Assembly (NCBI RefSeq): GCF_008180155.1
Contig: NZ_VSZS01000059.1
Coordinates: forward strand, 1-64,000
Origin: Neoaquamicrobium microcysteis
GTDB lineage: Bacteria; Pseudomonadota; Alphaproteobacteria; Rhizobiales; Rhizobiaceae
Direction of reading: 5' to 3'
DNA length: 64,000 nt
The translations under genes were made by a program, and so were the position numbers. Below the pieces are notes generated by a model. The model had not been told where the DNA came from, did not search any database, and saw nothing but the letters and a program-made list of their open reading frames with translations. This document shows positions 2,082 through 19,873 of the stretch, one piece after another. Position 1 is the stretch's first letter, and every line of letters begins with the position of its first letter.

Positions 2082-2095
2082 TATCGTACGCAAGT
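2082..2095 (-). promoter_or_regulatory. module 1 operator-like site upstream of acyl-CoA dehydrogenase
   Basis: Reads ACTTGCGTACGATA on the minus strand, identical over all 14 bases to the site at 5454-5467. It lies 65 bp before the start of the gene at 2017. See the related sites at 17132-17160, 19820-19833 and 19858-19871. The palindromic core CGTACG and its placement at promoters suggest a TetR- or GntR-like repressor; none for this module is in the window. Confidence 0.6.
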
Positions 2096-2098
2096 TTA

Positions 2099-3349
2099 TC
2101 ATCGCTGCCAGAACCGACCTGTCCACCGGCCCCAGCTCTCTTCCAGCATCGGCCGATGAGCGGGGGCCGCGACGGCGATCAGCGCCTCGGCGCGCTCATG
2201 ATGGGACTTGAGCCGCAGGTCGGCCGCCCCGTGCTCGGTCACCACGACGTCGATGTCGAAGCGGTTCAACGAGACCGGTGCGGGATTGGCTCCGGTCGGC
2301 ACGATGCGGCTCGTCCGTCCGCCGTCGGCCGTGGACGGCAGAACGATGATGCGTATCGCGTCATTGGCGCGTCCAGCGGAAGCGAAGTCCGATGCGCCGC
2401 CCGGTCCGGACATCAGACCGGCGGCCTGATGCTCGGCGAACCCGTTTGCAAGCAGGTCGATTTCCACCACGGAATTGATCGTGACGAATCGCTGGAGTGT
2501 CGTGATCACTTTCGGCGAGTGCGTGAAGACCGCCGGCCTGAACCGGAAACGGTCGTCGGCGACCGCTTCGTAGAGCCGTGCCGTGCCGATTGCCACCCCG
2601 GTCGTGATCGACAGGCCCGGCGCGATGGCGCCTGCTTCCAGCAGATCGACGACCGCGTCGCCGATCAGGCCGGAGTGGATTCTCAGGTTCCTGTGATCCG
2701 CAAGGCCGCGTAGCGCCGCGTCCGGGACGCGGCCGAGCCCGGTCTGTATCGTGGCCCTGTCCGGGACGATTGCGGCCACATGCCGGCCGATCGCCTCGGT
2801 GACCGCGTCCGGCGCGCCGGTTTGCGATGTCGGAAGATCCTGCTCACCTTCGACCACCGCGGTGAGTTCCTCCCATGGTATCCCGGCATAGCCCCTCGTC
2901 TCAGGGAGCCGCGGGTTGACGTGCGCGATCCTGATCGGGATTCTCTTCCAGAAATCCGGCACGAAATCCGCGACCGGGCCGACGCCGCACAGCCCGTTCT
3001 CGTCGGGAGGCGACACCATGAACAGCGCGGCCGAGATCGGCGTGGCGTAGAGGTGCCGGATGATCTCCCGATAGTTGAAGGGAAGGAATTCCGTCGCGTC
3101 GGGCCGCCGCCGCAGTTCGGGCGTCAGGAAGAAGGTCTTCGCCCGGCGTCGGTCCTGAACCAGATAATCCAGCCTGTTCAGGCCGGGAACGAAGATGCCG
3201 GTGAAGGTCATCGGCCCGAGCCGGTCCCCGGCGGCGACGATGCCGTCGCGCAGCAGGGCCGACTCCGCAGAGCATGCCTGAAGCCAGGTCAGGCCGCCTG
3301 GCGGCAGCACCTCCGCGAGCCGGTCGGGCCGGATGATCTTCGGAGCCAC
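2099..3349 (-). CDS. acetyl-CoA hydrolase / family I CoA-transferase-like protein
   Basis: About 416 residues, matching the acetyl-CoA hydrolase / 4-hydroxybutyrate CoA-transferase family. It probably moves CoA between organic acids or hydrolyses a CoA thioester made by the ring-opening steps. Signatures are IQTGLGRVPDAAL, then IHSGLIGDAVVDLLEAGAI, the INSVVEIDL segment, and the strongly conserved C-terminal VVTEHGAADLR. As I recall the family, a catalytic glutamate occupies the residue after HS or HT (HSEM/HTEM); here it is glycine (HSGL), so the enzyme may not use the usual glutamyl-CoA mechanism. The reading frame is open further upstream through badI, but homology starts at a GTG at 3349, four bases after the badI stop, which I take as the start. 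It is in one operon with badI. Confidence 0.8.
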   Translation of the reverse strand: MAPKIIRPDRLAEVLPPGGLTWLQACSAESALLRDGIVAAGDRLGPMTFTGIFVPGLNRLDYLVQDRRRAKTFFLTPELRRRPDATEFLPFNYREIIRHLYATPISAALFMVSPPDENGLCGVGPVADFVPDFWKRIPIRIAHVNPRLPETRGYAGIPWEELTAVVEGEQDLPTSQTGAPDAVTEAIGRHVAAIVPDRATIQTGLGRVPDAALRGLADHRNLRIHSGLIGDAVVDLLEAGAIAPGLSITTGVAIGTARLYEAVADDRFRFRPAVFTHSPKVITTLQRFVTINSVVEIDLLANGFAEHQAAGLMSGPGGASDFASAGRANDAIRIIVLPSTADGGRTSRIVPTGANPAPVSLNRFDIDVVVTEHGAADLRLKSHHERAEALIAVAAPAHRPMLEESWGRWTGRFWQR

Positions 3350-3353
3350 AAGA

Positions 3354-4148
3354 CTACTCGACGAACTTGTGGAAGTCCGGCTTGCGCTTTTCGTTGAAGG
3401 CGTTGACGCCTTCCTTCGATTCCGGCGTCGCGTAGTAGAGCTTGACCGCATGCAGCGCCATGTTGCTGATGCCGCGGATGGCGTCGGAATCGGCGTTGAA
3501 GGAGCGCTTGAGAAAGGCGAGCGCGGTGGGGGACCGTTCGCCGAGCTTCGTTGTCCAGTCCTCCACTGCCGCGTCGAGCTCGGCCAGCGGCACGACCTTG
3601 TTGACGAGGCCCATCGCCAGCGCTTCCTGGGCCGTGTAGCGCTCGTTGAGGTACCAGATCTCGCGGGCGCGCTTGTCGCCGACATGGCGGGCGAGGAAGG
3701 CCGTGCCCCAGCCGGCATCGAAGGAGCCGACCTTGGGCCCGACCTGGCCGAACTGGGCGGAATCGGCCGCGATGGTCAGATCGCACAGTGTGGCGAGCAC
3801 GTTGCCGCCGCCGATCGCGAAGCCGTTGACGCGAGCGATCACCGGCTTCGGGATGTCGCGGATGATGCCCTGCAACTCCTCGATCGGCAGGCCGACCACG
3901 CCGCGCCCGTCATAGTTGCCGTCATGCGCCGACTGGTCGCCGCCGGTGCAGAACGCCTTGTCGCCCGCGCCGGTCAGCACGACGCTCGATACCTCCCCGT
4001 CGTTGGCGGCGATCTGGAACGCCTGGATCAGTTCCTCGACGGTGCGTCCGCGAAAGGCGTTGTAGACCTTGGGACGGTTGATGGTGATCCATGCGGCGCG
4101 GCCGCGAACCTCGTAGATGACATCCTCAAAGGCGGGTGTGGTCGTCAT
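3354..4148 (-). CDS. badI: BadI-like 2-ketocyclohexanecarboxyl-CoA hydrolase (ring opening)
   Basis: A 264-residue crotonase-family protein very like BadI of Rhodopseudomonas, which hydrolyses 2-ketocyclohexane-1-carboxyl-CoA to pimelyl-CoA. The diagnostic stretch is FCTGGDQSAHDGNYDGRG, followed by VVGLPIEELQ, FAIGGGNVLATLCDLT and GQVGPKVGSFDAGWGTAFLA. The related MenB (naphthoyl-CoA synthase) has a different sequence after GGDQ, and no menaquinone genes are nearby. The ATG at 4148 has a good ribosome-binding site (GGAGG) and overlaps the stop of the upstream thioesterase gene by ATGA, which implies translational coupling. It sits between a BadH-like dehydrogenase and a CoA-transferase, as expected for alicyclic acid catabolism. 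The true substrate may be a substituted ring. Confidence 0.85.
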   Translation of the reverse strand: MTTTPAFEDVIYEVRGRAAWITINRPKVYNAFRGRTVEELIQAFQIAANDGEVSSVVLTGAGDKAFCTGGDQSAHDGNYDGRGVVGLPIEELQGIIRDIPKPVIARVNGFAIGGGNVLATLCDLTIAADSAQFGQVGPKVGSFDAGWGTAFLARHVGDKRAREIWYLNERYTAQEALAMGLVNKVVPLAELDAAVEDWTTKLGERSPTALAFLKRSFNADSDAIRGISNMALHAVKLYYATPESKEGVNAFNEKRKPDFHKFVE

Positions 4149-4645
4149 GATTTTTCCTCCAGGGATTCGAAGAAGCCAGCCAGCGTCGATCCGGGATAGA
4201 TCGATTTCGGCCCGATCTTGTAGACGCAGCTTGACCGGAACACCGGCCTGTCTGCGACCGCTCCGACGGTCTGCGTGAAGAGCAGGTTGCGGGTCGCCTT
4301 CAGCAGCGACGTGTCCGCCTGCAACCAATTGCCGCTGACGATCGGCTCGAGGTAGTCGATGCTCATGCTGATCGTCGGCGTCAGATGGTCGGGCACTCCG
4401 CCCTCGCGCTGCGCCACATAGGCCTGCATGTCGGCGAAACACGCGACCACCCCGCCATGCAGTGTCTGGTGCGGGTTCAGCAATCTTGGCTTGATGCGCA
4501 TGCCGAGCGCGAGCTTTCCGTCACGAACACGGCCGTAGATCGCGCCGATGAACAAATTGAAGCCACCACCGATCGGAATGCGATGGAAACCCGGCGGCGG
4601 ATCATCGGCGATGTCCTGCGCTATCAGCTCGGCGATCGGATCCAT
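4145..4645 (-). CDS. PaaI-type hotdog-fold acyl-CoA thioesterase
   Basis: A 166-residue hotdog protein with the family signature NPHQTLHGGVVACFADMQA (about residues 75-93), in which HGG and the following Asp shape the thioesterase active site, and a second conserved strand SMSIDYLEPI. PaaI-like enzymes hydrolyse stalled or dead-end CoA thioesters to release CoA. It lies between badH (gap of 2 bp) and badI (4-bp ATGA overlap), so it belongs to the ring-opening operon. A role in relieving CoA trapping during ring cleavage is inferred. The start at 4645 is chosen because an upstream extension would run into badH. Confidence 0.8.
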   Translation of the reverse strand: MDPIAELIAQDIADDPPPGFHRIPIGGGFNLFIGAIYGRVRDGKLALGMRIKPRLLNPHQTLHGGVVACFADMQAYVAQREGGVPDHLTPTISMSIDYLEPIVSGNWLQADTSLLKATRNLLFTQTVGAVADRPVFRSSCVYKIGPKSIYPGSTLAGFFESLEEKS

Positions 4646-4647
4646 CG

Positions 4648-5406
4648 TCAGATCATGTTCATGCCGCCGGAGACCGAGATCGTCTGCCCGGTGATGAAAT
4701 TGCCGTCCTCCGATGCAAGAAAGGCGACGATGCCGGCATAGTCCTCCGGCTCGCCCATGCGCTTGAGCGGAATGCCGCGCACCATGGCGTCCTTCCACTT
4801 GACCGCATCATCGCCCGTGCCGAGGACCGACGCCATCATCGGCGTGTTGGTCGGCCCCGGACATACGGCGTTGAGCAGCACCCCCTTGCGCGCCAGCTCG
4901 CGCGCCACCGACTTGGTGAAGGCGATCAGGCCGCCCTTGCAGGCCGAGTAGACCGCCTCGTCGCTAGTGCCGACGCGGGCGGCATCGGATGCGATGTTGA
5001 CGACGCGGCCGCCGCCGCGCTCCACCATGCCGGGGCACACCGCATGGTGCGTGTTCAGCGGCCCGTAGAGGTTGATGTTGATGATCCTGTCCCACAGCGC
5101 GCGGTCGGTCTTGAGGAACGGCATCGGCTTGTCCCAGCCGGCATTGTTGACCAGCAGCCAGATGTCGCCGAAATCCTGCGTCACCTGCGCGACGGCCGCG
5201 TCGACGGCTTCGCGATCGCCGACATCGACGCCATAGACCTTGACCGCGCCGCCCTTCGCCTCGGCGGCGGTTTCCTCCGCGGTGTCGGGCTTCAGGTCGA
5301 AGATCGCGACATTGCAGCCTTCCTCCGCGAGCCTGAGCGTGATCGCCCGTCCGATGCCCTGGCCGCCGCCCGTCACGATGGCGGTCTTTCCCTTCAGTCC
5401 ACGCAA
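4648..5406 (-). CDS. badH: BadH-like 2-hydroxycyclohexanecarboxyl-CoA dehydrogenase (SDR)
   Basis: A 252-residue short-chain dehydrogenase. It has the NAD-binding motif TGGGQGIG, the NNAGWDKP segment, and the catalytic Ser/Tyr/Lys in NIASDAARVGTSDEAVYSACKGG (YxxxK). The stretch around NNAGWD and NIASDAARVG resembles R. palustris BadH, which oxidises 2-hydroxycyclohexanecarboxyl-CoA to the 2-keto compound used by BadI. I choose the TTG at 5406 as the start: it follows a GGGAGG ribosome-binding site by 8 bases and gives LRGLKGKTAIVTGGG, aligned with the BadH N-terminus. A GTG at 5424 is in frame but lies upstream of that site. It is the first gene of the operon running down to 2099. The promoter region with an operator-like site lies at 5407-5512. 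Confidence 0.8.
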   Translation of the reverse strand: MRGLKGKTAIVTGGGQGIGRAITLRLAEEGCNVAIFDLKPDTAEETAAEAKGGAVKVYGVDVGDREAVDAAVAQVTQDFGDIWLLVNNAGWDKPMPFLKTDRALWDRIININLYGPLNTHHAVCPGMVERGGGRVVNIASDAARVGTSDEAVYSACKGGLIAFTKSVARELARKGVLLNAVCPGPTNTPMMASVLGTGDDAVKWKDAMVRGIPLKRMGEPEDYAGIVAFLASEDGNFITGQTISVSGGMNMI

Positions 5407-5453
5407 TTTTTCATCCTCCCACACGTCCAGGACGGCGCTCCTGAAAACAATAT

Positions 5454-5512: not shown

Positions 5513-6946
5513 ATGGCTCAGCGATATGTAAGGAGCGTCGGCGCTTATCTGCCGCTGTTGCGGCTCGACCGCAAGGCAGCTTCAGGAGCGTTCGGCTGGT
5601 CGGGGCTGGCGATGCCCCGCAGCGGCCGCCGAAGCGTGGCGGCCTGGGACGAGGACGCCTTGACCATGGCGGTGGAAGCCGGGCGCACGGCGCTTGCTGG
5701 CCATCATGCTGACAGCGTCGTCTTCGCCTCGACCTCAGCTCCCTTCCGCGAAAGGCTGCAAGCCAATCTTCTGTGCGAGGCGCTCGGCCTGCCGCGCGAT
5801 GTCTCTGTGTCAGATGTGGCGGGCTCGCGGCGTTGCGGCGTCTCGGCGCTGCGTCAGGCTCTGCTGAACGGCGGCGGCGACGCTCTGGTCGCTGCCGGGG
5901 AGCGGCGCGCGACGATGCCCGGCAGCGCCTTCCAACTCACCTGGGGAGACGGCGCCGCGGCGGCGCTCATTGGCGACGACGGCTGCGCGCGGCTGCTGGG
6001 AAGCGCCTGCATCAATGTCGACTTCGTCGATGTCTACGTCTCTGACGAACGGCCCCTGCCATATGCGTCGGAGGAACGCTTCGTGCGCGAGGAAGCGATC
6101 GCGCTGGCCTTCGTTCCCGCCATCGAGGCGGCCTGCGCGAACGCTGGCGTTTCCGCCGCCGAGATCGCGCTCGCGGTTGTGCATGAGCCTGTCGGAGGCG
6201 TCTACAAGGGCCTTGCCGCCGTGGCGGGATTGAAGGCGCCGAACCTGTGCGACGACATCACCGCCGCGGCCGGAGACCTCGGTGCCGCGCACGCGCTGTT
6301 CGGGCTGGCGCTCGCCCTGGAGCGCGGCAAGCCCGGCGACCGCATCCTCGTCGCGGGCTTCGGCAGCGGCTGCGACGCGCTCGTCCTCGAAATGACCGCG
6401 CCCTGTGACGGGTCGGCTTCGGCGGAAACATCGCTTCGCGAAGGCGCCGCGCTCACGAACATCACCCGCTTCCTGTCGCTCGCCGGCTCGCTCGACCTCG
6501 ACTGGGGGCCGCGATCCGAACTCGACCAGAAGACCGCCGCCTCCGTCCTCGCCCGTCACGGTCGCGACATGCACGGCTTCATCGGCGGCCGCGACGCACG
6601 CGGAAACGTCCAGTTCCCGAAGACGCTGATTCCCGTCTCGCCGCTGGCGGACGGACCGGAGCCGCTGGCGGACGTGCGTCTGGCCGACCTCGAGGCCAGC
6701 ATCGTCTCCGTCACCGCTGACCGGCTCAACTTCACCCCGGACCCTCCGTTCCATTTCGGGCTCGTCCAGTTCGACAACGGGGCGCGGGTTTCGATGGAGT
6801 TTCGGGACATCGAGGGAGCGACACCGCAGGTCGGCGACAGGGTCCGGATGCGCTTCCGCGTCAAGTCGATCGACCGCAAGCGCGGTTTCCGCACCTACTT
6901 CTGGAAGGCCGCCCCTCTTGAGCGGCCGAAACTGGAGGAAGGCTGA
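5513..6946 (+). CDS. HMG-CoA synthase-like protein fused to a C-terminal DUF35 OB-fold domain
   Basis: 477 residues. The N-terminal 330 or so resemble KAS III/HMG-CoA synthase folds: SDVAGSRRCGVSALRQAL at the nucleophile region, then TWGDGAAAALIGDD. The C-terminal part (about 335-477) is a DUF35/OB-fold domain, recognisable by GNVQFPK and later FTPDPPFHFGLVQFDNG. In its relatives this domain begins with a zinc ribbon (CxxCGTVQFP...C..C); here the cysteines are absent (RDARGNVQFPKTLIP), so metal binding is probably lost. Cys in RRCGVSAL does not align well with the HMG-CoA synthase nucleophile. The next gene is a thiolase, overlapping by one base (TGATG), which recalls the thiolase/DUF35 aldol-lyase pairs of steroid side-chain breakdown. 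A claisen or retro-aldol role is inferred, not shown. Confidence 0.75.
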   Translation: MAQRYVRSVGAYLPLLRLDRKAASGAFGWSGLAMPRSGRRSVAAWDEDALTMAVEAGRTALAGHHADSVVFASTSAPFRERLQANLLCEALGLPRDVSVSDVAGSRRCGVSALRQALLNGGGDALVAAGERRATMPGSAFQLTWGDGAAAALIGDDGCARLLGSACINVDFVDVYVSDERPLPYASEERFVREEAIALAFVPAIEAACANAGVSAAEIALAVVHEPVGGVYKGLAAVAGLKAPNLCDDITAAAGDLGAAHALFGLALALERGKPGDRILVAGFGSGCDALVLEMTAPCDGSASAETSLREGAALTNITRFLSLAGSLDLDWGPRSELDQKTAASVLARHGRDMHGFIGGRDARGNVQFPKTLIPVSPLADGPEPLADVRLADLEASIVSVTADRLNFTPDPPFHFGLVQFDNGARVSMEFRDIEGATPQVGDRVRMRFRVKSIDRKRGFRTYFWKAAPLERPKLEEG

Positions 6947-8145
6947 TGGCTTCCGGCATCCGCGACCGCGTCGTCATCGCCGGCATGGGCTGCACCGAAT
7001 TCGGCGAGCGTTGGGACAAGGGTCCCGAGGCGCTGATGGTCGAGGCCTTCGAGGAGGCGCTGGCCGATGCGGGCATCGGGCGCGGCGACATCGAGGCGGC
7101 CTGGCTGGGCGTCGCGCTCGACGACATGAATGTCGGCAATTCGGCGCTGCCGCTCGCCACCGCGCTGCGCCTCAGGAACATCCCCGTCACCCGTGTCGAG
7201 AACATGTGCGCCACGGGCACGGAGGCGCTGCGCGCCGCTACCTATGCGGTCGCGGCCGGGGCCTGCGACGTGGCGCTGGCGCTCGGCGTCGAGAAGCTGA
7301 AGGACACCGGCTACGGCGGTCTGCCCCTGCGCACCAAGGGGCTCGCCAACGATCTGTGGATGCCCTACGGCTCCGCGCCGGGCACCTTCGCCCAGCTTGC
7401 CGGGGCCTATACGGCGAAGCACGGCGTCGAGGCGGGCGACCTCAAGCGCGCCATGGCGCATGTCTCATGGAAGAGCCACCAGAACGGGGCGCTGAATCCT
7501 AAGGCGCATCTGCGCAAACCCGTATCGATGGAGACGATCCTCAACGCGCCGCTGATCGCCGACCCGCTCGGCCTGTTCGACTGCTGCGGGGTGTCGGACG
7601 GCGCGGCCTGCGCCATCGTCACCACGCCAGACATCGCCCGCGGGCTCGGCAAGGACGCGCTGGTGAGCGTCAAGGCGATCCAGCTCTCCGCCAGCAACGG
7701 CTGGGAAAGCCAGTACGGCGAATGGGACGGCTCCTATGTCCGAAACACGCGCGAGGCGGCGCGGCGCGCCTATGCGGAAGCCGGCGTTTCCGATCCGCGC
7801 GCCGAGATCGGCATGACCGAGGTGCATGACTGCTTCTCGGTGACGGAACTGGTGACGATGGAGGATCTGGGCCTGTCCGACGAGGGCAGGGCGGTCTTCG
7901 ACATCCTCGACGGAAGGTTCGATCGCGACGGCGCAATCCCTTGCCAGATCGATGGCGGGCTGAAGTGCTTCGGCCATCCCGTCGGGGCGTCCGGCCTGCG
8001 CATGGCCTACGAGGTCTACGGCCAGCTTCTCGGTCGCGCCGGAGAGCGCCAGCGGGACCGTATCAATCTCGGCCTCACCCACAATCTCGGCGGCGCGCCG
8101 GCCAACAGCGTGTCGGCGGTCTCGATCTTCGGCAGGCTCGAATAG
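6946..8145 (+). CDS. thiolase-superfamily acetyl-CoA acetyltransferase (SCP2-type)
   Basis: A 399-residue thiolase of the lipid-transfer/SCP2-type group. Visible catalytic elements are the nucleophilic cysteine in ENMCATGTEALRAA (about residue 87), the HDCF box (about 295) and GHPVGASG with the catalytic His (about 345). The last loop reads THNLGGAPANS and lacks the second cysteine (CxG) of classical thiolases, as is common in this subgroup. It would cleave a 3-ketoacyl-CoA with CoA. Its start overlaps the stop of the DUF35 fusion gene by one base, so the two products are probably made together and may form a complex. Confidence 0.85.
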   Translation: MASGIRDRVVIAGMGCTEFGERWDKGPEALMVEAFEEALADAGIGRGDIEAAWLGVALDDMNVGNSALPLATALRLRNIPVTRVENMCATGTEALRAATYAVAAGACDVALALGVEKLKDTGYGGLPLRTKGLANDLWMPYGSAPGTFAQLAGAYTAKHGVEAGDLKRAMAHVSWKSHQNGALNPKAHLRKPVSMETILNAPLIADPLGLFDCCGVSDGAACAIVTTPDIARGLGKDALVSVKAIQLSASNGWESQYGEWDGSYVRNTREAARRAYAEAGVSDPRAEIGMTEVHDCFSVTELVTMEDLGLSDEGRAVFDILDGRFDRDGAIPCQIDGGLKCFGHPVGASGLRMAYEVYGQLLGRAGERQRDRINLGLTHNLGGAPANSVSAVSIFGRLE

Positions 8146-8154
8146 GAGAGAACC

Positions 8155-8607
8155 ATGGGAGGACGCTATTTCGAGGAATTCGAGGTCGGCCAGCGTTTCG
8201 TCCACGAAGTGCGCCGGACGGTCACCGACATGGACAACATCCTGTTCTCGACGCTGACGCACAACCCGGCCGCGATCCATATCGACCATGAATATGCCAA
8301 GACGACGGAGTTCGGAAAGCCGCTGATGAACTCCATCTTCACGCTCGGGCTGGTGGTCGGGCTCTCGATCCAGGACACGACGCTCGGCACCACGGTGGGC
8401 AACCTCGGCTGGGAGGAGGTGAAGTTTCCGAAACCCGTCTTCTCCGGTGACACCCTGCGCGCCGAGACCAGCGTCGTCGCGCTCAAGGAAAGCCGGTCGC
8501 GCCCGACGCAGGGGATCGTCACCTTCGAGCACACGGGGTTCAACCAGCGCGACGAGGAAGTGTGCGTGTGCCGGCGCGTGGCGCTGATGCTGAGGAGGCC
8601 GGCATGA
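8155..8607 (+). CDS. MaoC-like (R)-specific enoyl-CoA hydratase
   Basis: 150 residues, single hotdog MaoC domain, near-complete family length. The hydratase-2 motif region reads THNPAAIHIDHEYA (about residues 35-48). In most relatives the residue before NP is Asp, Asn or Gln; here it is His, while the second catalytic His/Asp part (HID) is kept. The downstream GKPLMNSIFTLGLVVGLS is the usual conserved helix. It probably hydrates a 2-enoyl-CoA to a 3-hydroxyacyl-CoA. Its end overlaps the next gene (lyase) by ATGA, as in mesaconyl-CoA hydratase/lyase pairs, so a branched or dicarboxylic CoA substrate is possible. Confidence 0.8.
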   Translation: MGGRYFEEFEVGQRFVHEVRRTVTDMDNILFSTLTHNPAAIHIDHEYAKTTEFGKPLMNSIFTLGLVVGLSIQDTTLGTTVGNLGWEEVKFPKPVFSGDTLRAETSVVALKESRSRPTQGIVTFEHTGFNQRDEEVCVCRRVALMLRRPA

Positions 8608-9476
8608 GGCTGCGGTCGCTCCTCTTCGTTCCCGGCGACAGCGAGCGCAAGTTCGACAAGGCGCGCAACTGCGGCGCCGACGCGCTGATCCTCGATCTGG
8701 AGGACGCGGTCGCGCCGTCGCGCAAGGTCGAGGCGCGCGCGCTCGTCCAGCACTTCCTGCGGGACGGCAGCCCCCACGACTGGAGCTTCTGGGTTCGCGT
8801 CAACGCCTTCGACACCGGAATGACGCTGGACGATCTTGCAGCCGTCGTCGCGCCGGGGCTTGCCGGCATCGTCTTCCCGAAGTCGAACGGTGCCGCCGAT
8901 CTCGTCCGGCTCGGCCACTGTCTCGACGCGCTGGAAGCCAAAGCGGAAATGCCGGCCGGCGGGATCAAGGTGCTGGTCGTGTCGACAGAAACCCCGCAGG
9001 CCATGTTCAACCTCGGCTCCTACACGCCCGCCCATCCGCGGCTGGCCGCGCTGACCTGGGGCGCGGAGGATCTGGGCGCGGCCATCGGTGCGACCGCCAA
9101 CAAGGAGGCGGACGGCGCGTGGACCATGCCCTATCAGGTGGCGCGCTCGATGTGCCTGTTCGCGGCTGCCGCATCGGACGTGACGCCGATCGATACGCTC
9201 TATGCCGATTTCCGCGACGCTGACGGCCTTGCTGAGAGCTGCCGGCGCTCGCGCCGCGACGGTTTTCTGGGCCGCATCGCGATCCATCCCGATCAGGTCG
9301 CAACGATCAATACGTGCTTCTCGCCCTCCGAAGAAGACATTGCCGAGGCGCAGAAGATCGTCGCAGCCTTCGCCGCGCAGCCCGACGCGGGCACGATCGG
9401 CATCGACGGCAGGATGGTCGACATACCGCATCTGAAGCAGGCAAGGCGCGTGCTCGCGTCGATCCCGGGGAGTTGA
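8604..9476 (+). CDS. HpcH/HpaI aldolase / CitE-like CoA-ester lyase
   Basis: A 290-residue TIM-barrel protein of the citrate lyase beta subunit-like family. It opens with RSLLFVPGDSERKFDKA and LILDLEDAV, the family signatures for CoA-ester binding and the metal site. VFPKSNGA and VSTETPQAM supply further active-site loops, and the C-terminal IAIHPDQV is typical. Members cleave malyl-, methylmalyl- or citramalyl-CoA by retro-aldol chemistry using Mg. With a MaoC hydratase directly upstream (overlap ATGA), a hydration-then-cleavage pair acting on a branched or unsaturated dicarboxylic CoA ester is the most economical reading. I cannot tell the substrate from the sequence. Confidence 0.8.
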   Translation: MRLRSLLFVPGDSERKFDKARNCGADALILDLEDAVAPSRKVEARALVQHFLRDGSPHDWSFWVRVNAFDTGMTLDDLAAVVAPGLAGIVFPKSNGAADLVRLGHCLDALEAKAEMPAGGIKVLVVSTETPQAMFNLGSYTPAHPRLAALTWGAEDLGAAIGATANKEADGAWTMPYQVARSMCLFAAAASDVTPIDTLYADFRDADGLAESCRRSRRDGFLGRIAIHPDQVATINTCFSPSEEDIAEAQKIVAAFAAQPDAGTIGIDGRMVDIPHLKQARRVLASIPGS

Positions 9477-9483
9477 AGAGGCC

Positions 9484-10668: not shown

Positions 10669-10669
10669 G

Positions 10670-11599: not shown

Positions 11600-11604
11600 G
11601 GACG

Positions 11605-12465: not shown

Positions 12466-12482
12466 ACACGGCGGGACAGCGG

Positions 12483-14027
12483 ATGATGCGGTCGACCATG
12501 GACTACGGACTGCGCGAATGGGCGCGAAGAGAGCCCGATCGTGTCGCGCTCCGGTTCGACGGCGGTGCGGTCCTCAGCTTCGGCGAGCTGGAGCGGATGG
12601 CCAACCGGTTCGCCAACCTCTTCGCAGATTGCGGGCTGCGGCATGGAGACCATGTCGCGGTGCTGCTCGGCAACGGCCCCCACATCGTCGCCCTGTGCTG
12701 GGCGGCCTCGCGTTCCGCGATCTACCTGACCCCGATGCCCAATTCGCTCGGTCCGGTGGAGACGGCCTATATCGTCGACAACTCGACGGCGAAGCTGGTG
12801 ATCGCGGATCCGCGCTACGGCGGGGTCGCGGCCGAGCTGCCGGCGCGATGCGCCCACGTCGCGAGCTTTCTCTCGCTCAATGGCGGCATCGAGGGCTTCG
12901 AGCCCGCGGAGCCGCGTCTGGCGGCGATGTCCGCCGATCCGCGCTCCGACGAAAGCCCCGGCTCGCTGATGATGTACTCGTCGGGAACCACCGGCGCGCC
13001 GAAGGGCATCTGGAGGCCGCTTCCGGCCATGGAGCAGCTTGCCGGCGGCCCGCCCGCCTTCGCGCGCGACCTGATCTCGCTTTTCGGCTTCACGGCCGAA
13101 ACGCGCTATCTGTCGACCGCTCCGCTCTACCACGCCGCTCCGCTGCGCTTCGTGCTCGCGGTCTCCGCGGCCGGCGGGCAGTCGACCGTGATGGAGAAGT
13201 TCGACGCGGCGCGCTCGCTGGATCTCATCGAGGAGCACAGGCTGACCATGTCGCAATGGGTGCCGACCATGTTCCAGCGGCTCCTCGCCCTGCCGGAGGA
13301 GCGGCGCAGATCATATGACGCGCCCCGGCATGTCCGCGCGATTCACGGCGCCGCGCCCTGCACGCCGGCCCTCAAGCGGGCGATGATCGAGTGGTGGGGG
13401 CCGATCATCGAGGAATACTATTCCGGTTCGGAAGGCGTGGGCCTGACGAGCATCGGCAGCGCCGAATGGCTCCGCAAGCCCGGCTCGGTCGGCGCGGCGA
13501 AGAAGGGGACGATCCACATTCTCGGCGACGATGACGCCGAGCTGGGGCCGGGGGAGAGCGGCCGCGTCTTTTTCAGCGGCACGCCGCCCTTCGCCTATTT
13601 CGGCGACGAGGCCAAGACGGCCGGCCGGACGAGCCGTCAGGGCTACCAGACCTTCGGGGACATCGGCCATGTCGACGGGGAGGGACACCTCTTTCTCTCC
13701 GACCGGCTCGACGACATGATCATTTCGGGCGGCGTCAACGTCTATCCGCAGGAGATCGAGGCCGCGATCGAGGAGGCCGAAGGGGTCGCCGAATGCGGCG
13801 TGGTCGGATTTCCGGACGAGGAATTCCAGGAAAGGCCGGTGGCCTTCGTGGTGCCTGCGGCTGGTCGGCGCGAAGCTTCCGGCGATCTGCTCGCCCGTCT
13901 GGAGACGCATGTCAGGCAGCGCCTGGGCCGCATCAAATGGCCGCGCGAAATCCGCTTCGTCGCCGAACTGCCCCGCTCGCCGACCGGAAAGCTGCTGCGC
14001 CGCGAGCTTCGGAAAATCGGCGACTGA
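12483..14027 (+). CDS. AMP-forming acyl-CoA synthetase
   Basis: An ANL-superfamily ligase of about 514 residues. The P-loop is MMYSSGTTGAPKG (about residue 163). Later motifs are EEYYSGSEGVG, the hinge region LSDRLDDMIISGGVNVYPQEIE and the C-terminal catalytic lysine in SPTGKLLRREL. It activates a carboxylic acid to its CoA thioester with ATP. It closes the plus-strand operon and faces, 13 bp away, the end of the convergent TRAP transporter genes, which may import its substrate. The open frame extends upstream through the hydratase gene, but homology begins near MDYGLREWARREPDRVAL; ATG 12483 is chosen, GTG 12462 is possible. Confidence 0.85.
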   Translation: MMRSTMDYGLREWARREPDRVALRFDGGAVLSFGELERMANRFANLFADCGLRHGDHVAVLLGNGPHIVALCWAASRSAIYLTPMPNSLGPVETAYIVDNSTAKLVIADPRYGGVAAELPARCAHVASFLSLNGGIEGFEPAEPRLAAMSADPRSDESPGSLMMYSSGTTGAPKGIWRPLPAMEQLAGGPPAFARDLISLFGFTAETRYLSTAPLYHAAPLRFVLAVSAAGGQSTVMEKFDAARSLDLIEEHRLTMSQWVPTMFQRLLALPEERRRSYDAPRHVRAIHGAAPCTPALKRAMIEWWGPIIEEYYSGSEGVGLTSIGSAEWLRKPGSVGAAKKGTIHILGDDDAELGPGESGRVFFSGTPPFAYFGDEAKTAGRTSRQGYQTFGDIGHVDGEGHLFLSDRLDDMIISGGVNVYPQEIEAAIEEAEGVAECGVVGFPDEEFQERPVAFVVPAAGRREASGDLLARLETHVRQRLGRIKWPREIRFVAELPRSPTGKLLRRELRKIGD

Positions 14028-14039
14028 ACAAACTCCGGC

Positions 14040-15380
14040 TCAGATGGCGCTCGCCATCCACAGCGACAGTGCCGGGAAGACCAGCAGCAGCGCCAGAACC
14101 ACCAGGTCCATCAGGAAGAAGGGCGCGACCCCGACGAACATGCGCTCGACCGGGATCTTCGGCGTCACCACGCTGTTGAGGACGAACACGTTCAGCCCGA
14201 CCGGCGGCGTGATCAGCCCCATCTCCAGGAGCTTCACGACGATGACGCCGAACCAGATCAGGTTGAAGCCGTGGCTCTCGACCAGCGGGATGGTGAAGGG
14301 CAGGGTCAGCAGCATGATGCCGAGCGGGTCGAGGAACATGCCGAGCACGAGATAGACGAGGACGATCGCCAGGATCAGCCAGACGGTCGAGAGATCCGCC
14401 TGCTGGACGAGATCGACGAGCCAGGTGGCGACGCCGGTCAGCGAAACGAAGGTGACGAACACCTTGGCGGCGCCCGCGATGACGAAGATCGCGGCGGACT
14501 GGACCGCCGTCTCGCGCATCGCCTCGATGAAATCCGCCATCGTGATCCTGCGGCCTACGGCGCTGATGAACAGCGCGATGAAGAACGTCACGGCAGCCGC
14601 CTCCGTCGCCGTGAAATAGCCGCCGTAGATGCCTCCGATGATGATGACGAGAATGAGGACCGCCGGCCAGGAGCGCGCGGCGGCAACCATGCGGTCCCTG
14701 AGCGAATACTGCTCGGTCGCGGGCGGCGCGGAAGCAGGGTTCCATGTCGCCCAGATCGCCACGACCAGGCAGTAGCTCAGCATCGAGATGATGCCGGGCA
14801 CCACGCCCGCGAGAAAGAGCCGGCTGATCGACTGCTCGGCGAAGATACCGTAGAGGATGAACAGCAGGCTCGGCGGGATCAACGCTCCGAGCGTCCCGCC
14901 CGCCGCCACCGCGCCGCTCGCCAGCCGGTCGCTGTAGCCGTATTTGCGCATTTCCGGCACCGCGATTCGCCCCATGGTCGCCGCGCAGGCGACGCTCGAC
15001 CCCGAAATGGCGGAAAAGCCGCAGCAGCCCAGGATCGACGCGACAGCAAGGCCGCCCGGCACGCGGGTAAGCCAGGTTCTCGCTGCGAAATAGATGTCGC
15101 TGGTGATGCCGGCCCGGTAGCAGATATGGCCGAGCGCGATGAACAGCGGCACGGCCGTCAGGTCGTAGGAATGGAACAGCCCGAAATAGGTGTTGGTGAC
15201 GAGCGTGAGCGCCGGAGCGATCGCGCCCTGAAGTTGCATGCCCCCGGCCGCCGGAAAGGCGAAGAAGGCGTAGATGCAGGAGACGGCCATCGCGCCGAGG
15301 GCGAAGGCGATGGGCACGCGCAGGAGGATCAGCACCAGAGACAGCCCGAGGCCGAGCGTGCCCATCAGGACGGGTTCCAT
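14040..15380 (-). CDS. dctM: TRAP transporter large permease (DctM-type)
   Basis: 446 residues, almost entirely hydrophobic helices, the length and topology of the 12-13 span DctM subunit. The conserved GCCGFSAISGSSVACAATMG stretch and the mid-region GGTLGALIPPSLLFILYG are hallmarks of the family. With the small DctQ and periplasmic DctP subunits upstream it forms a sodium- or proton-driven importer of organic acids. It lies 6 bp after dctQ. The nearby ligase and catabolic genes suggest that it brings in the module 1 substrate. Confidence 0.9.
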   Translation of the reverse strand: MEPVLMGTLGLGLSLVLILLRVPIAFALGAMAVSCIYAFFAFPAAGGMQLQGAIAPALTLVTNTYFGLFHSYDLTAVPLFIALGHICYRAGITSDIYFAARTWLTRVPGGLAVASILGCCGFSAISGSSVACAATMGRIAVPEMRKYGYSDRLASGAVAAGGTLGALIPPSLLFILYGIFAEQSISRLFLAGVVPGIISMLSYCLVVAIWATWNPASAPPATEQYSLRDRMVAAARSWPAVLILVIIIGGIYGGYFTATEAAAVTFFIALFISAVGRRITMADFIEAMRETAVQSAAIFVIAGAAKVFVTFVSLTGVATWLVDLVQQADLSTVWLILAIVLVYLVLGMFLDPLGIMLLTLPFTIPLVESHGFNLIWFGVIVVKLLEMGLITPPVGLNVFVLNSVVTPKIPVERMFVGVAPFFLMDLVVLALLLVFPALSLWMASAI

Positions 15381-15386
15381 TGGATG

Positions 15387-15914
15387 TCAACCGTGCGGTT
15401 TGTGCCTGCTGCGATAGACCTCGCCTTCGCCGGCCAGCTCGGCCAGGAGGTGATGCGTCAATCTCAGCCAGACGAGGATGAAGCCTGTTGCGAAGAAGAG
15501 GCGGGCGGGCCATTCGGGCATGTTGAGCTGCCCGTAATAGTACCGCCCGCTCCGGAGGAAGGCGAGAAAATCGCCGACGGCCCAGAGCGCGACCGGGACG
15601 ACGGCGACAAGACCGGCGGCCACCGCGACCAGCTCCGCCGCCGTCCGGCCTTTCGGCCCGAAGCGGTCGTAGAGAAGGTCGACGGCTATGTGCGCCCGCT
15701 GCCCCGTCGCATAGCCCAGGCCGCAGGCGATGGAAACCAGCATGAGCTGCTGGGTGATCAGGACATGGTCGGGGATGCTCAGGCCGATGTTGCGGATCGA
15801 GATCGCGGTGATCATGATCGCCGCAATCAGGACGAGCGCGCTGACGGAGACGGCGAACAGCGTCTTTTCCAGGTGGCCGAGCCCCTTGTCGAACAGGTCC
15901 AGAAATCGCCGCAA
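15387..15914 (-). CDS. dctQ: TRAP transporter small permease (DctQ-type)
   Basis: About 175 residues with four hydrophobic segments (around residues 15-40, 50-75, 85-110 and 125-150), as in DctQ. I place the start at the TTG at 15914 because GGGAGG lies 8 bases before it; an in-frame TTG at 15932 lies upstream of that site and would be less likely. The same GGGAGG-N8-TTG arrangement occurs at badH. It is in one operon with dctP (68 bp upstream) and dctM (6 bp downstream). Confidence 0.85.
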   Translation of the reverse strand: MRRFLDLFDKGLGHLEKTLFAVSVSALVLIAAIMITAISIRNIGLSIPDHVLITQQLMLVSIACGLGYATGQRAHIAVDLLYDRFGPKGRTAAELVAVAAGLVAVVPVALWAVGDFLAFLRSGRYYYGQLNMPEWPARLFFATGFILVWLRLTHHLLAELAGEGEVYRSRHKPHG

Positions 15915-15982
15915 CGATTCATCCTCCCGCAATGGTTCCTTGCCGGCGCCGGTGTTCTTGCGCCGTCGGGCTGACTATTGGG

Positions 15983-17041
15983 CTATTCTTGCGCCTCGGT
16001 CGCATATTTTGTGGTGAGCGTGCGGTAGGTTTCGAGAAGTCGCGCGCCGTCCGCGCCCACGCTCGCTCCCCGGGCCACCCACTCGTCGACGAACGGCTGG
16101 CCGAGCTCGTCCAGCCGGGCGATCTCCTCCGGCCCGGGCGTGACGACATCGATCGTGCGGCCTTCATAGCCGGCTCGGAAATTCTCGATCACTTCCCGGT
16201 TGTCGCCTTCGATGCGTCTGGCGAGCCGCTCGGTGAACTCGCGGCCCAGTTCCCGCAACACCTGCTGGTCCTCTTCTCCGAGCGCCTCGAACTGGCTCTT
16301 GTTCATGAGAACTCCGTTCGAGCCGAGCGTGGCCCAGTTGACGTCGAGATACTGGTTTGTCACCTCGAACAGCTTGTAGGAGACGGCCGTATAGGCATAG
16401 GTCTGAGCGCAATCGACCAGGCCGGTGTCGAGCCCCTGATAGGTCTCCGGCAGGGGCAGGGGAACGGCGTTCGCGCCGAGCTGCTCGAGAACCTTGCCGA
16501 TGTCGCCGCTGTATCGGATCTTCTTGCCTCGCAGGTCGTCGAGCGAGCCGATCGGGCCGCCGGTGCAGATGAACTGGATAGGGCCGACCGTGTAGTTTGC
16601 GATATAGACGAGGCCGGAGCGATCGAACTCGGCAAGCATCTGCTCGTCGCTCGTGCCCATCTCGTAGAGCGCCATCGAGCTCGCTACCGAATCCGGCACC
16701 GCGATCATGGCGTCGCCAACGCTGTAGGCGTAGAGCTGCTGCGGGAAGTAGGCGGCCGTGATCGCGCCCATGGCCGCCACGCCCGATGCAATGCCGTCGA
16801 ACATGCCGGTCGCGCTCAGCAGCGCCCCGCCCCAGTGGAACTCGATCCTGACGCGGCCATCCGTCCGCTTGGCAAGCTCGTCGGCGAACCACATCTGCTC
16901 CTCTGCCCGCGACCCGCGATTGGGACCATAATCGGCGAAGCGCAGGACCGTCTGCGCCTGCGCTTCCGCGGCAACCGCCAAGGCGAGCCCCGTCGCGAAT
17001 ATCGCGGACATCGAGTACTTCGAGACTGATTTCCTCAACAT
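15983..17041 (-). CDS. dctP: TRAP transporter substrate-binding protein (DctP family)
   Basis: 352 residues with a cleavable signal peptide ending in AAEAQAQ, then VLRFADYGPNRG, a DctP-type start of the mature protein. The middle carries the ICTGGPIGSLDDLRGKKIRYSG stretch, the region that includes the conserved ligand-binding arginine of DctP proteins. It captures an organic acid in the periplasm for DctQM. The start at 17041 follows a GGGAGG site; an earlier in-frame start at 17089 would put 16 polar residues before the signal peptide. Two tandem operator-like sites lie about 90-120 bp upstream. Confidence 0.9.
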   Translation of the reverse strand: MLRKSVSKYSMSAIFATGLALAVAAEAQAQTVLRFADYGPNRGSRAEEQMWFADELAKRTDGRVRIEFHWGGALLSATGMFDGIASGVAAMGAITAAYFPQQLYAYSVGDAMIAVPDSVASSMALYEMGTSDEQMLAEFDRSGLVYIANYTVGPIQFICTGGPIGSLDDLRGKKIRYSGDIGKVLEQLGANAVPLPLPETYQGLDTGLVDCAQTYAYTAVSYKLFEVTNQYLDVNWATLGSNGVLMNKSQFEALGEEDQQVLRELGREFTERLARRIEGDNREVIENFRAGYEGRTIDVVTPGPEEIARLDELGQPFVDEWVARGASVGADGARLLETYRTLTTKYATEAQE

Positions 17042-17160: not shown

Positions 17161-17260
17161 ATCTAGGCAAGCCGAAACCGATCATTTGCGTTTGCCCGGC
17201 TGACTGCTCTGCGAACTCGACCGGGCGGTTCGGATGCGGATCTTCGCCCGAGTCCTCTCT

Positions 17261-18589
17261 TTACTGCTCCAGCACGGCGAACGGTCCGCCGAGATAAGAG
17301 GGGAAACCGGCCTGGGTCACGGCGGCGAAATCGGCCAGGGCACGCTCGCTCTCGGCAAATGCGGAGCCGTACGCGCGCGCGACCCCGGCCGTTGCGGCGA
17401 CGATCTTCAGCGCGGCTTCCTCCATCGGTGATCCGGGTTTTTCGAACCAGGGAACCTCGCGGCCGGCAATTTCCGCGGGATCGGCGGGATATGAGCCTTC
17501 GGCGGTGAAGCCGGCAAACCGCAGCGCCTCCGGCCGCATATCTCCCAGCCCTGCGTCCGCGCTTTCGACCGCGGCGCGGACATCCGCGACGAAGCTCGCA
17601 AGCGCGCCGGGCAGGGCGTCCGCCTTCCGCCGCTTGTCGTAGTCCTGCCTGCCGATGAAGAGCGACCGGATCATGTTGCGCGGCTCCGGGCGTTTTATCA
17701 GGTCGGCGAAGATGTCGATCTCGGAGCCTAGCGCGTCATCGATCGCGGCGGGCAAGCCTTGCTCGATGCAGTCGAGGATGGCAAGCGGGGCAGGGTAGTG
17801 GCCGCCGGTCTCGGCCAGTATGCGCGCCCGCGTCTGTCCGAGCGCCTCGGAGACGGCTTGCACGTCCGGCGCGTGCCAGTCCGGCCGGTCCCAGGGCTGT
17901 GCGGGAACCGTGGCGCCGAGCACCCACCGCTCGGCGGTGGCGACTTCCCCGCCCGCCGCGACCACCTCGTCGGCGGCTCCTGCTTCCAGTGCCTCCTGCG
18001 GCGAAAGCCGCGCGCCTTCGAGCAGGATCGGCAGCGACCTTTCCAGTCCGACGAGCCGGGGCATCCGCTGCGTGCCGCCGCCGCCCGGCAGCAGGCCGAC
18101 CAGCGATTCCGGCAGCCCGAGGGCCGTTCGGGGCGTATCGGTGAGCACACGGTAGTGGCACCCCATGGCGAACTCGCAGCCGCCGCCAAGCGCGAGCCCG
18201 TCGATCGCTGCGGCGACGGGCTTGCCGGCCGTCTCCAGCTTGCGGAACGCCCTGCCGATCGGCGCGAAATGGTCGCGCGCGATGCGCTTGCGCTCGGCCG
18301 GACGGGCGGCCACGATCATGTCGTACGCCTCGCCGAGCTCGCCGAGGTCGGCTCCGGCGCAGAACGCCGACGTTTTGCCGGAGCGAATGACGACCCCGCG
18401 CACCGTGCTCGTCTTCAGCCACGTCGCGAAGGCGTCGATCTCGTGGATCGCTGCGTTCGAGAACACGTTCATCGAGCGGCCGGGCATATCGAAGATCAGG
18501 TGGAGGATGCCCTCTGGCGTCGTCTCCGTGCGGAATTCCTTCATGGCCGGCATGGTGCTCATCGTCGGTGTCCGTTCCTGGCTTGGCAT
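17261..18589 (-). CDS. FadB/FadJ-like crotonase protein lacking the NAD-binding dehydrogenase domain
   Basis: 442 residues. The N-terminal 200 resemble the hydratase domain of FadB-type multifunctional enzymes: AFCAGADLGEL, LALGGGCEFAMGCHYRV and LPESLVGLLPGGGGTQRMPRLVG, with the first catalytic Glu (LPES) but no clear second Glu. The C-terminus ends VTQAGFPSYLGGPFAVLEQ, a FadB C-terminal signature, yet the GxGxxG Rossmann domain that normally lies between is missing (full FadB is over 700 residues). Either a natural short form or an old in-frame loss. Its ATG at 18589 follows the acyl-CoA dehydrogenase stop by 4 bp; ATG 18562 is an alternative. Hydratase or hydrolase activity is possible; dehydrogenase activity is not. 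Confidence 0.75.
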   Translation of the reverse strand: MPSQERTPTMSTMPAMKEFRTETTPEGILHLIFDMPGRSMNVFSNAAIHEIDAFATWLKTSTVRGVVIRSGKTSAFCAGADLGELGEAYDMIVAARPAERKRIARDHFAPIGRAFRKLETAGKPVAAAIDGLALGGGCEFAMGCHYRVLTDTPRTALGLPESLVGLLPGGGGTQRMPRLVGLERSLPILLEGARLSPQEALEAGAADEVVAAGGEVATAERWVLGATVPAQPWDRPDWHAPDVQAVSEALGQTRARILAETGGHYPAPLAILDCIEQGLPAAIDDALGSEIDIFADLIKRPEPRNMIRSLFIGRQDYDKRRKADALPGALASFVADVRAAVESADAGLGDMRPEALRFAGFTAEGSYPADPAEIAGREVPWFEKPGSPMEEAALKIVAATAGVARAYGSAFAESERALADFAAVTQAGFPSYLGGPFAVLEQ

Positions 18590-18593
18590 AGGA

Positions 18594-19739
18594 TCAGAGG
18601 CTTCTCGATATCAGCTCGCGCATGATCTCGGAGGTGCCGCCATAGATGCGCTGTACACGCGCGTCGGCGTAGAGCCGGCAGATCTCGTATTCGCGCATGA
18701 AGCCGTAGCCGCCGAAGAGCTGGAGGCACTGATCGACGACGCGCCCGTGCATCTCGCTCGTCCACAGCTTGGCCATCGAGGCTTCGGACTGGCCGAGCTT
18801 TCCCTCGACGTGCCGGGCGAGGCACTGGTCGACGAACGCCCAGCCGACGGCGAGCTCGGTCTTCAGGTCCGCGAGCCTGTAGCGCGTGTTCTGCATGTCG
18901 GCGATCGGCTTGCCGAACGCCTTGCGCTCGCGCGTATAGTCGCGGGTGATGTCGAACGCCTTCTGGGCCGCTCCCATCGAGGTGATGGCGATGATCAGCC
19001 GTTCCTGCGGAAGCTCGCTCATCAGCGCGCCCATCGCGCCGCCTTCGACGCCGAGCAGGTTTGTGGCCGGAACCCGGACGCCGTCGAAGAACAGCTCCGA
19101 CGTGTCGGCGGAAAGCTGGCCGAGCTTTTCGAGGTTCCTGCCGCGCCGGAACCCTTCCCTATCCGTCTCGACGAGGATCAGGCTCATGCCGCGCGAACCG
19201 GGCTCGTCGCCGGTGCGCGCGACGACGATGACGAGGTCGCACATCTGGCCGTTGGAGATGAAGGTCTTCTGGCCGGTCACCACATAGTCGTCGCCGTCGC
19301 GGACGGCCCGCGTGCGGATGCCCTGAAGGTCGCTGCCGGTGCCCGGCTCCGTCATCGCGATCGCGCAAACCGCCTCGCCGCTGACCATGCGCGGCAGCCA
19401 GCGCCGCTTCTGTTCGGGCGTTCCATAGGACAGCAGATAGCCGCAGCAGACGTCGCTGTGGACGGAAAAGTCGGAGGTGGGGCCGGCGAAGCCGGAATAG
19501 GCGAACTCCTCGACGATCACCGCGTTCATGCTGAAATCGCCGCCCGCGCCGTCATAGTCCTCGCCGACCTGCGGGCAAAGGAGTCCCGCCTCGCCGCCCT
19601 TCGTCCACATTGCCCGGTCGACGATGCCCGCCTCTTCCCAGCGCGCGAAATGCGGCGCTACCTCGGAGGCGAGGAAGCGGCGTGCCGTCTCGCGAAGCTG
19701 ACGATGCTCCTCGCCGTGGATCGCCCTGTTGGACAGCAT
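18594..19739 (-). CDS. acyl-CoA dehydrogenase, LCAD type
   Basis: 381 residues, similar in layout to the enzyme at 839-2017. Flavin loop AMTEPGTGSDLQ, ISNGQMCD, RKAFGKPI and QLFGGYGFMREYE. The loop near the C-terminus reads IYGGTSEIM, lacking the YEGT glutamate, while the LCAD/isovaleryl-type glutamate in QERL (E246) is present. The start at 19739 has a GGGGGAGGAG site; the frame is open to 19811 but that region carries regulatory sequence. It shares a 184-bp divergent promoter region with the flavin oxidoreductase gene at 19924. Confidence 0.9.
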   Translation of the reverse strand: MLSNRAIHGEEHRQLRETARRFLASEVAPHFARWEEAGIVDRAMWTKGGEAGLLCPQVGEDYDGAGGDFSMNAVIVEEFAYSGFAGPTSDFSVHSDVCCGYLLSYGTPEQKRRWLPRMVSGEAVCAIAMTEPGTGSDLQGIRTRAVRDGDDYVVTGQKTFISNGQMCDLVIVVARTGDEPGSRGMSLILVETDREGFRRGRNLEKLGQLSADTSELFFDGVRVPATNLLGVEGGAMGALMSELPQERLIIAITSMGAAQKAFDITRDYTRERKAFGKPIADMQNTRYRLADLKTELAVGWAFVDQCLARHVEGKLGQSEASMAKLWTSEMHGRVVDQCLQLFGGYGFMREYEICRLYADARVQRIYGGTSEIMRELISRSL

Positions 19740-19819
19740 GCCTTCGTCTCCTCCCCCCGCCGATTGGCTCGACTCGACGACCATTCGACCCGCGCACATC
19801 GTGCGCAGCAAAATAGTAC

Positions 19820-19833
19820 GGTTGTGTACGAAT
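19820..19833 (+). promoter_or_regulatory. module 1 operator-like site in divergent promoter (distal copy)
   Basis: GGTTGTGTACGAAT, matching the consensus ACTWGCGTACRATA at the core TTGYGTACGA. It lies 80 bp before the minus-strand start at 19739 and 38 bp from the second copy at 19858-19871. Confidence 0.45.
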
Positions 19834-19842
19834 GCAACAGGC

Positions 19843-19873
19843 TTGACAGCATGCGGAGATAGTACGCTATATT
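19843..19873 (+). promoter_or_regulatory. sigma-70-like promoter for the flavin oxidoreductase-ECH-EtfBA operon
   Basis: A TTGACA box at 19843-19848 and a TATATT box at 19868-19873, 19 bases apart, facing the plus strand about 50 bp before the TTG start at 19924. A module 1 operator-like site (19858-19871, minus-strand reading TATAGCGTACTATC) overlaps the -10 box, as expected for repression. Confidence 0.45.
19858..19871 (-). promoter_or_regulatory. module 1 operator-like site overlapping -10 box
   Basis: TATAGCGTACTATC on the minus strand, sharing TAGCGTAC with the consensus. Its overlap with the TATATT box of the plus-strand promoter supports a regulatory role. Confidence 0.45.

Follow-up and report, generated by a model that had tools for sequence, protein, structure and literature searches.

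The stretch of DNA analysed here (the window) spans positions 1-64000 of contig NZ_VSZS01000059.1, which is 202,920 bp long and belongs to the 4.84 Mb genome of Neoaquamicrobium microcysteis. Several of its promoter gaps carry a 24-bp inverted repeat (dyad), which is very probably the operator of a MarR-family protein encoded at 194091-194615 of the same contig, most likely an autoregulated local repressor of a single CoA-thioester catabolic route that would be released by an acyl-CoA of the pathway. The dyad itself, its placement in promoters, its conservation at part of its targets and its presence before marR can be read directly from the sequence. The assignment to this MarR is made because the dyad precedes marR both here and in all 33 orthologous loci, because marR is linked to the target genes in relatives (loci L083-L090) and because of a comparison with paralogous regulators. 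This is judged to be a real regulon, whose regulator is assigned by comparative evidence and which is defined better than in an earlier note on this DNA, where six 14-base sites had been ascribed to a single repressor. What began as a motif spotted by hand becomes a regulon open to testing, for which a candidate regulator gene, an exact operator and eight target gaps can be named. It joins genes 175 kb apart in one putative pathway and offers a potential route to the substrate of an uncharacterised catabolic pathway of soil and marine Alphaproteobacteria.

Definition of the operator

The sites listed in the earlier note start at 2082, 5454, 17132, 17147, 19820 and 19858, and all six sequences are present there. 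The 14-mer itself does not hold as the motif and gives way to a 24-bp inverted repeat approximating to AWATNRTACRCTWGYGTAYNATWT, in which arms of the type ATATNRTA flank a CRCTWGYG core. Written as the IUPAC word ACTWGCGTACRATA and allowed up to three mismatches, the 14-mer matches only at 2082, 5454 and 17147, with 3.7 matches expected by chance in 64 kb, and at least three matches occur in 73 of 100 shuffles of the 64 kb; on its own the word lacks significance, and it does not cover all six sites. A short core, TWGCGTAYNATM, was also tried, for which eight exact matches in the genome, six of them on the contig, compare with five for the reversed control. It was abandoned in favour of the dyad because its count per genome, taken over 121 genomes of the family, does not separate genomes with the regulator from those without it.

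A first matrix of 16 positions, in which the six listed sites were combined with two from 177 kb, led to additional promoter sites elsewhere on the contig, at 189 kb and 194-195 kb, one pair of which precedes a MarR gene. With this MarR protein as the sole bait, 33 loci were retrieved from named genomes. A half-site matrix derived from eight contig sites, from which that of marR itself was excluded, found 105 matches in these loci, where 40 column-permuted matrices averaged 10.7 matches and never exceeded 27, and 101 of the 105 lie in promoter gaps of a sequence that is called coding over 87% of its length. The 91 promoter sites taken for alignment were reduced to 43 by the removal of near-duplicates and were extended on both sides before alignment. 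The sequence on the left, which did not enter into the choice of sites, is a mirror image of the right half, with a T in 43 of 43 sites and an A in 84% opposite the TA of the right half, and the element is therefore a 24-bp palindrome.

The dyad matrix used below was built from the sites of the relatives, which had first been found through the half-site matrix of this contig. The left arm provides an independent test, in which seven of the eight contig training sites rank among the top 1% of intergenic 8-mers, the exception being the site at 17132. When palindromic spaced trimers were counted without supervision in the promoters of the nine loci L083-L091, GTA-N8-TAC came top, with 22 occurrences against the 2.0 that simple shuffles would predict. 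In seven loci of the Bradyrhizobium type the identical dyad, written TAC-N6-GTA, ranks first. Because the members of each group are related, these counts are not independent. For the contig of the window alone, the unsupervised dyad count left the motif outside the eight top rows.

Distribution in the window, contig and genome

Gene boundaries were called by a purpose-written codon-usage script, with no standard gene finder. On the contig, the dyad matrix gives 11 matches scoring at least 17, every one of them in a promoter gap, a number reached by none of 500 column-permuted symmetric matrices (mean 0.2, maximum 3), while Markov shuffling of the contig's 98 intergenic segments, repeated 200 times, gave a mean of 0.035 matches and a maximum of 1. 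The 11 dyads are spread over eight promoter gaps, four in the window and four outside it, with distances of 33-195 bp to the nearest start codon.

The six dyads of the window that score at least 17 are all located within 2047-19880, the next best match scoring 11.7. Two of them precede the acyl-CoA dehydrogenase gene at 839-2017 with a spacing of 34 bp: O1a (2047-2070, score 17.5), which was absent from the earlier list, and O1b (2081-2104, score 24.4), which holds the listed site 2082-2095 and whose left arm is independently supported. O2 (5445-5468, score 26.6) holds 5454-5467 and lies between the divergent BadH-like and HMG-CoA-synthase-like operons. O3 (17138-17161), with the best score of the contig (28.7), holds 17147-17160 and precedes the TRAP operon. 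The gap between the divergent operons for an acyl-CoA dehydrogenase (ACAD) and an enoyl-CoA hydratase (ECH) and for a nitronate-monooxygenase-like protein (NMO), an ECH and an electron-transfer flavoprotein (etf) contains both O4a (19811-19834, score 23.9), which holds 19820-19833, and O4b (19857-19880, score 28.4), which holds 19858-19871. The proposal of one shared element in the non-coding gaps before all of these operons is thus borne out. Its inventory of six related sites needs amendment: 19820-19833 is genuine within the dyad 19811-19834, but 17132 has no separate dyad and 2047 was missed. Tried as a site of its own, 17132-17145 has no left arm (score -7.7) and overlaps the left arm of the dyad at 17138-17161.

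The motif had been taken to define a single module of the window, but it also marks operons at 177-196 kb of the contig. Outside the window, dyads at 177395 and 177498 lie between divergent operons encoding Liv-type permeases, ABC proteins and AMP-binding enzymes; the dyad at 189386 precedes an operon for two HGD-D proteins, a BadF/BcrA-type ATPase and a CoA-transferase; that at 194668-194691 (score 21.5) precedes marR; and that at 195591 lies between SDR and BKACE genes. Searched genome-wide as a word with up to three mismatches, the dyad occurs at ten distinct places, seven of them on this contig, which makes up 4.2% of the genome, and the reversed word at one. The three places off the contig (contigs 14, 40 and 47) each have three mismatches, that on contig 14 scoring 12.8 by the matrix, and four of the 11 matrix matches (2047, 19857, 189386 and 194668) lie more than three mismatches from the word.

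Conservation in related bacteria

In the 33 loci, 189 of the 190 dyads scoring at least 15 are located in promoter gaps; the motif is not equally frequent in coding sequence, a contingency that the earlier note had raised. A dyad is found in the gap of all 32 called marR orthologues and of all 28 orthologues of SDR_d. The acyl-CoA dehydrogenase encoded at 839-2017 (ACAD_a) has orthologues of 79-82% identity in eight relatives, all eight preceded by a dyad, and the pair of dyads spaced by 33 or 34 bp that is seen in the window (2047/2081) recurs in five of them. The HMG-CoA-synthase-like gene has a dyad in the same gap in seven of eight relatives, and in the eighth (L085) the site is present and is overlapped by 8 bp by the gene call. 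Gap dyads accompany seven of eight orthologues of ECH442, seven of ten of the BadH-like gene, 20 of 28 of MaoC and nine of 15 of BKACE. One of 26 HpcH orthologues has a gap dyad, and none of those of the thiolase, ACAD_b, ECH264, the 416-aa CoA-transferase-type protein and the AMP-ligase, which are mostly intra-operon genes here. The conservation of sites in orthologous clusters on which the earlier note had staked its proposal is consequently seen for ACAD_a, for the BadH-like/HMG-CoA-synthase-like gap and for part of ACAD_c, and is not seen for the HGD-D site. Of all spacings up to 120 bp between dyads scoring at least 13 in these loci, an offset of 15 bp, at which the two dyads overlap, occurs most often (17 pairs).

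The candidate regulator

The marR gene is encoded on the minus strand at 194091-194615, approximately 175 kb beyond the last site of the window, in agreement with the suggestion that the regulator would be encoded outside it. The idea that the window is without a regulator does not stand, since two TetR genes are present at 40723-41439 and 53323-54018. The candidate protein contains a MarR winged-helix domain (PF12802, 1.7e-14, 54.1 bits, cut-off 27; PF01047, 1.3e-11, 44.7 bits, cut-off 24.6), and the inverted repeat in the own promoter that is common, if not universal, in the family is present by sequence as the dyad at 194668-194691. In all 33 orthologous loci a dyad scoring at least 15 lies within 400 bp before marR, compared with a mean of 0.3 and a maximum of 5 for 200 permuted matrices. 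In L083-L090, which were retrieved through marR alone, the gene lies less than 10 kb from orthologues of ACAD_a, the BadH-like and HMG-CoA-synthase-like genes, ACAD_c and BKACE, with dyads in the matching gaps. Orthologues of the HMG-CoA-synthase-like protein with at least 60% identity occur in three of the 121 family genomes (its own, G014 and G064), all three with a MarR of at least 65% identity; the contigs concerned in G014 and G064 are identical to L083 and L085. In G074, which encodes a 40% identical HMG-CoA-synthase-like homologue, no dyad scoring at least 14 was found in the surrounding 16.7 kb.

The genome was scanned for regulators at TetR_N and MarR_2 loci; GntR, IclR and LysR genes were not searched. 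MarR_2 gives 52 matches, and among the 30 scanned only the MarR locus of this contig has a dyad scoring at least 17. The operator could instead belong to a TetR-type repressor, with marR as a mere target, and four TetR genes on the contig are candidates (40723-41439, 53323-54018, 185568-186203 and 198968-199522). TetR operators are likewise long palindromes, and the gaps before the genes at 198968 and 53323 contain matches of 15.5 and 11.7, respectively; downstream of a TetR gene on contig 42 there is a good dyad (20.9). Such an assignment is nevertheless highly improbable: none of the 28 TetR_N loci of the genome has a dyad scoring at least 17 in the promoter of the TetR gene itself, the best reaching 15.5, so that the TetR gene carrying the motif in its own promoter that the earlier note had envisaged was not found. 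The TetR proteins at 185568 and 198968 have no orthologue of at least 50% identity in the 33 loci (the two of the window were outside that query set), and a TetR repressor would leave unexplained the match between the MarR recognition helix and the core of the dyad described below. The dyad on contig 42, a near-perfect palindrome at approximately 19704-19727 (L165:9705-9728), lies in the gap between the TetR gene and a gene of the NADH-ubiquinone-oxidoreductase 20-kDa type. The two TetR genes of the window are found amid Liv-type transport, thiolase and ligase genes and may control a second module.

It is also conceivable that at least two regulators share the sites, with MarR acting on marR and BKACE and another factor with a similar operator acting on the operons of the window. 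In L084 and L086 the cluster contains a second copy of marR (58-61% identity), approximately 8 kb downstream of the other, and in G030 a dyad accompanies an HMG-CoA-synthase-like gene without a close MarR orthologue, both of which would be compatible with such sharing. The marR/BKACE sites and the window sites, however, fit a single consensus with overlapping scores, which makes this division of labour very unlikely.

Several observations weigh against the assignment of all of these sites to the MarR at 194091-194615. The titles of 20 of the 33 loci name Bradyrhizobium, two of these being from one strain, and the right half of the dyad matrix descends from the sites of the contig itself, so that the enrichment tests on the contig are not fully independent. 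Gap dyads precede only eight of 27 ACAD_c and six of 26 ECH_b orthologues, some of these genes lying at a locus edge or within an operon. HGD_B has an orthologue of at least 50% identity in one relative only (L091), with no dyad before the gene, and the TRAP, NMO, etf and Liv genes have none at that threshold in the 33 loci. The promoter of ACAD_d reaches only a weak match (11.9, at 187141, before an ACAD/ECH pair). In G031, whose 59% identical MarR shares the recognition helix of the candidate, the 20 kb around the gene contain no dyad scoring at least 15. Conversely, the dyad in G030 scores 24.9 and precedes a 41% identical HMG-CoA-synthase-like homologue, and the MarR match of that genome is an EPIS-type paralogue with a dyad of the AGCATGCTT type. 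The dyad on contig 42 precedes the oxidoreductase gene. Finally, 71 of the 189 promoter dyads adjoin no gene with an orthologue of at least 50% identity in the query set, from which it follows that the content of the regulon probably differs between lineages. The strength given to the MarR assignment derives from the dyads at marR and from the linked loci, and is left unchanged by the misses at HGD-D, ACAD_c and ECH_b and by the lack of comparable TRAP, etf and Liv orthologues.

Recognition helix and operator core

Further evidence is provided by paralogues, for which 26 loci (L029-L054) with MarR matches of 30-41% identity were fetched from other genomes of the family. In the alignment of P0001 with ten of the 33 orthologues, all share the recognition helix GKV(A/G)(L/V)G(A/S)L and the operator core is ACRCTWGYGT. 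In 23 of the 26 paralogues the recognition helix starts with EP, and their promoters tend to hold a dyad of the same size with similar outer arms and the consensus core AAGCATGCTT. Within 150 bp upstream, 19 of the 26 paralogue promoters score at least 11 with the matrix of the orthologue dyads, compared with a mean of 1.7 and a maximum of 10 for 500 permuted matrices. The comparison offers a natural case in which the recognition helix of a MarR and the DNA site assigned to it differ in a matched way.

On balance, it appears somewhat probable that a distinct MarR subclade, which differs from its paralogues in the recognition helix (GKVALGAL versus EPISVSRL) and, correspondingly, in the operator core (ACRCTWGYGT versus AAGCATGCTT) while sharing the outer arms, controls a CoA-catabolic regulon, as yet undescribed, that occurs in Bradyrhizobium, Mesorhizobium and Rhodobacteraceae. 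In the present genome this regulon would have been enlarged by a benzoyl-CoA-reductase/2-hydroxyacyl-CoA-dehydratase-like enzyme, two transport systems and the electron-transfer flavoprotein. A literature search with the paralogue core strings returned, among the matches listed and as judged by title and start of abstract, none on a MarR. A palindrome with the consensus ATATNRTAAGCATGCTTAYNATAT is found just upstream of many of the EP-type paralogues in L029-L054, apparently the autoregulatory site of a MarR subfamily that is widespread in this bacterial family.

Proposed mechanism and relation to known MarR systems

According to the excerpts of the literature cited in this section, MarR proteins bind inverted repeats as homodimers, usually repress and are released by a ligand (PMC4737184, PMC9795900, PMC5797941), which for CouR and BadR is an acyl-CoA of their own pathway (PMC4737184, PMC9795900). 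By analogy, a dimer of the candidate MarR would occupy the 24-bp inverted repeat and repress its own gene together with operons for uptake, activation, β-oxidation-type steps and electron transfer, and repression would be lifted by an acyl-CoA of the pathway. The single repressor of ring opening, import and electron transfer that the earlier note proposed thus retains its shared element and gains a candidate regulator, while repression is something that we infer.

The dyads might alternatively be activator sites, which would still be compatible with MarR as the regulator. Some MarR proteins activate (excerpts of PMC4737184 and PMC5797941), and no sigma-70-like promoter match was found around O2 (5400-5650) or O4b (19720-19950). 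Activation is rather unlikely given that the dyads are symmetric and lie at the distances from start codons given above, and that the catabolic relatives BadR and CouR repress (PMC9795900, PMC4737184). As for the suggested overlap of one site with a -10 box, the dyad at 2081 shares bases with a weak promoter-like match (9/12) at 2125-2098 of the minus strand; a promoter-like match at 17130-17159 faces away from the TRAP operon.

The regulon proposed for the candidate MarR belongs to a known class, that of MarR-controlled catabolic regulons. BadR, the bad-ali repressor of Rhodopseudomonas palustris and Aromatoleum sp. CIB, is likewise a MarR-family regulator of CoA-thioester catabolism involving BadH-type genes, but its operator is given as CAATacATTG or CAAN4TTG (PMC9795900), and none of the 11 dyads holds CAAN4TTG, a comparison of the operators and not of the proteins. 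CouR from Rhodococcus jostii RHA1, which is released by p-coumaroyl-CoA, is also of the MarR family and has operators of the inverted-repeat type at several promoters, among them that of its own gene, and its release by an acyl-CoA is taken as the model mechanism for the candidate MarR. Its operator differs (cATTGA-N5-TCAATg; PMC4737184), with none of the 11 dyads holding even the shortened TTGA-N5-TCAA, and the solved chain named CouR (6c28) matches the candidate weakly (E 5.8e-6). SlyA from enterobacteria is among its nearest solved relatives (E 3e-13 to 4.4e-11). The SlyA operator, described as TTAGCAAGCTAA or TTA-N6-TAA (PMC5797941), has a 12-bp geometry equal to that of TAC-N6-GTA here, but differs in the letters of the core, as does the recognition helix (EQPSLVRTL in SlyA, GKVALGALI in the candidate). 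Literature searches for the regulon found no description of it in the titles and abstract starts of the matches listed, and the only match to five operator strings was unrelated.

Predicted target operons

Apart from ACAD_a (839..2017, minus strand), likewise a predicted target and identified by Pfam, four predicted target operons in the window were assigned functions from Pfam, and a fifth from Pfam and NCBIfam. The operon at 2099..5424 (minus strand) encodes a BadH-like SDR (4648-5424), a thioesterase (4145-4645), an enoyl-CoA hydratase (3354-4148) and an acetyl-CoA hydrolase/transferase-type protein (2099-3349). It diverges from that at 5636..14027 (plus strand; Pfam and NCBIfam), which comprises an HMG-CoA-synthase-like protein with an OB fold, a thiolase, a MaoC protein, an HpcH/CitE-like protein, an ACAD, an SDR, a MaoC/HadB-like protein and an AMP-binding ligase. 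The predicted DctP-DctQ-DctM TRAP transporter operon (14040..17011) and that for ACAD_c with an ECH-domain protein (17261..19739) are both on the minus strand, followed on the plus strand by the predicted target at 19924..23465, with genes for the nitronate-monooxygenase-like protein, an enoyl-CoA hydratase and two electron-transfer-flavoprotein subunits.

Outside the window, the HGD-D operon (contig 189454-194090; L016:5454-10090) encodes two HGD-D proteins of 388 and 448 aa, one BadF/BcrA-type ATPase and a family III CoA-transferase. The HGD-D pair has similar scores, far below the cut-off, for models of benzoyl-CoA reductase and of 2-hydroxyisocaproyl-CoA dehydratase. BKACE scores above the NCBIfam cut-off for 3,5-dioxohexanoate:acetyl-CoA acetone transferase.

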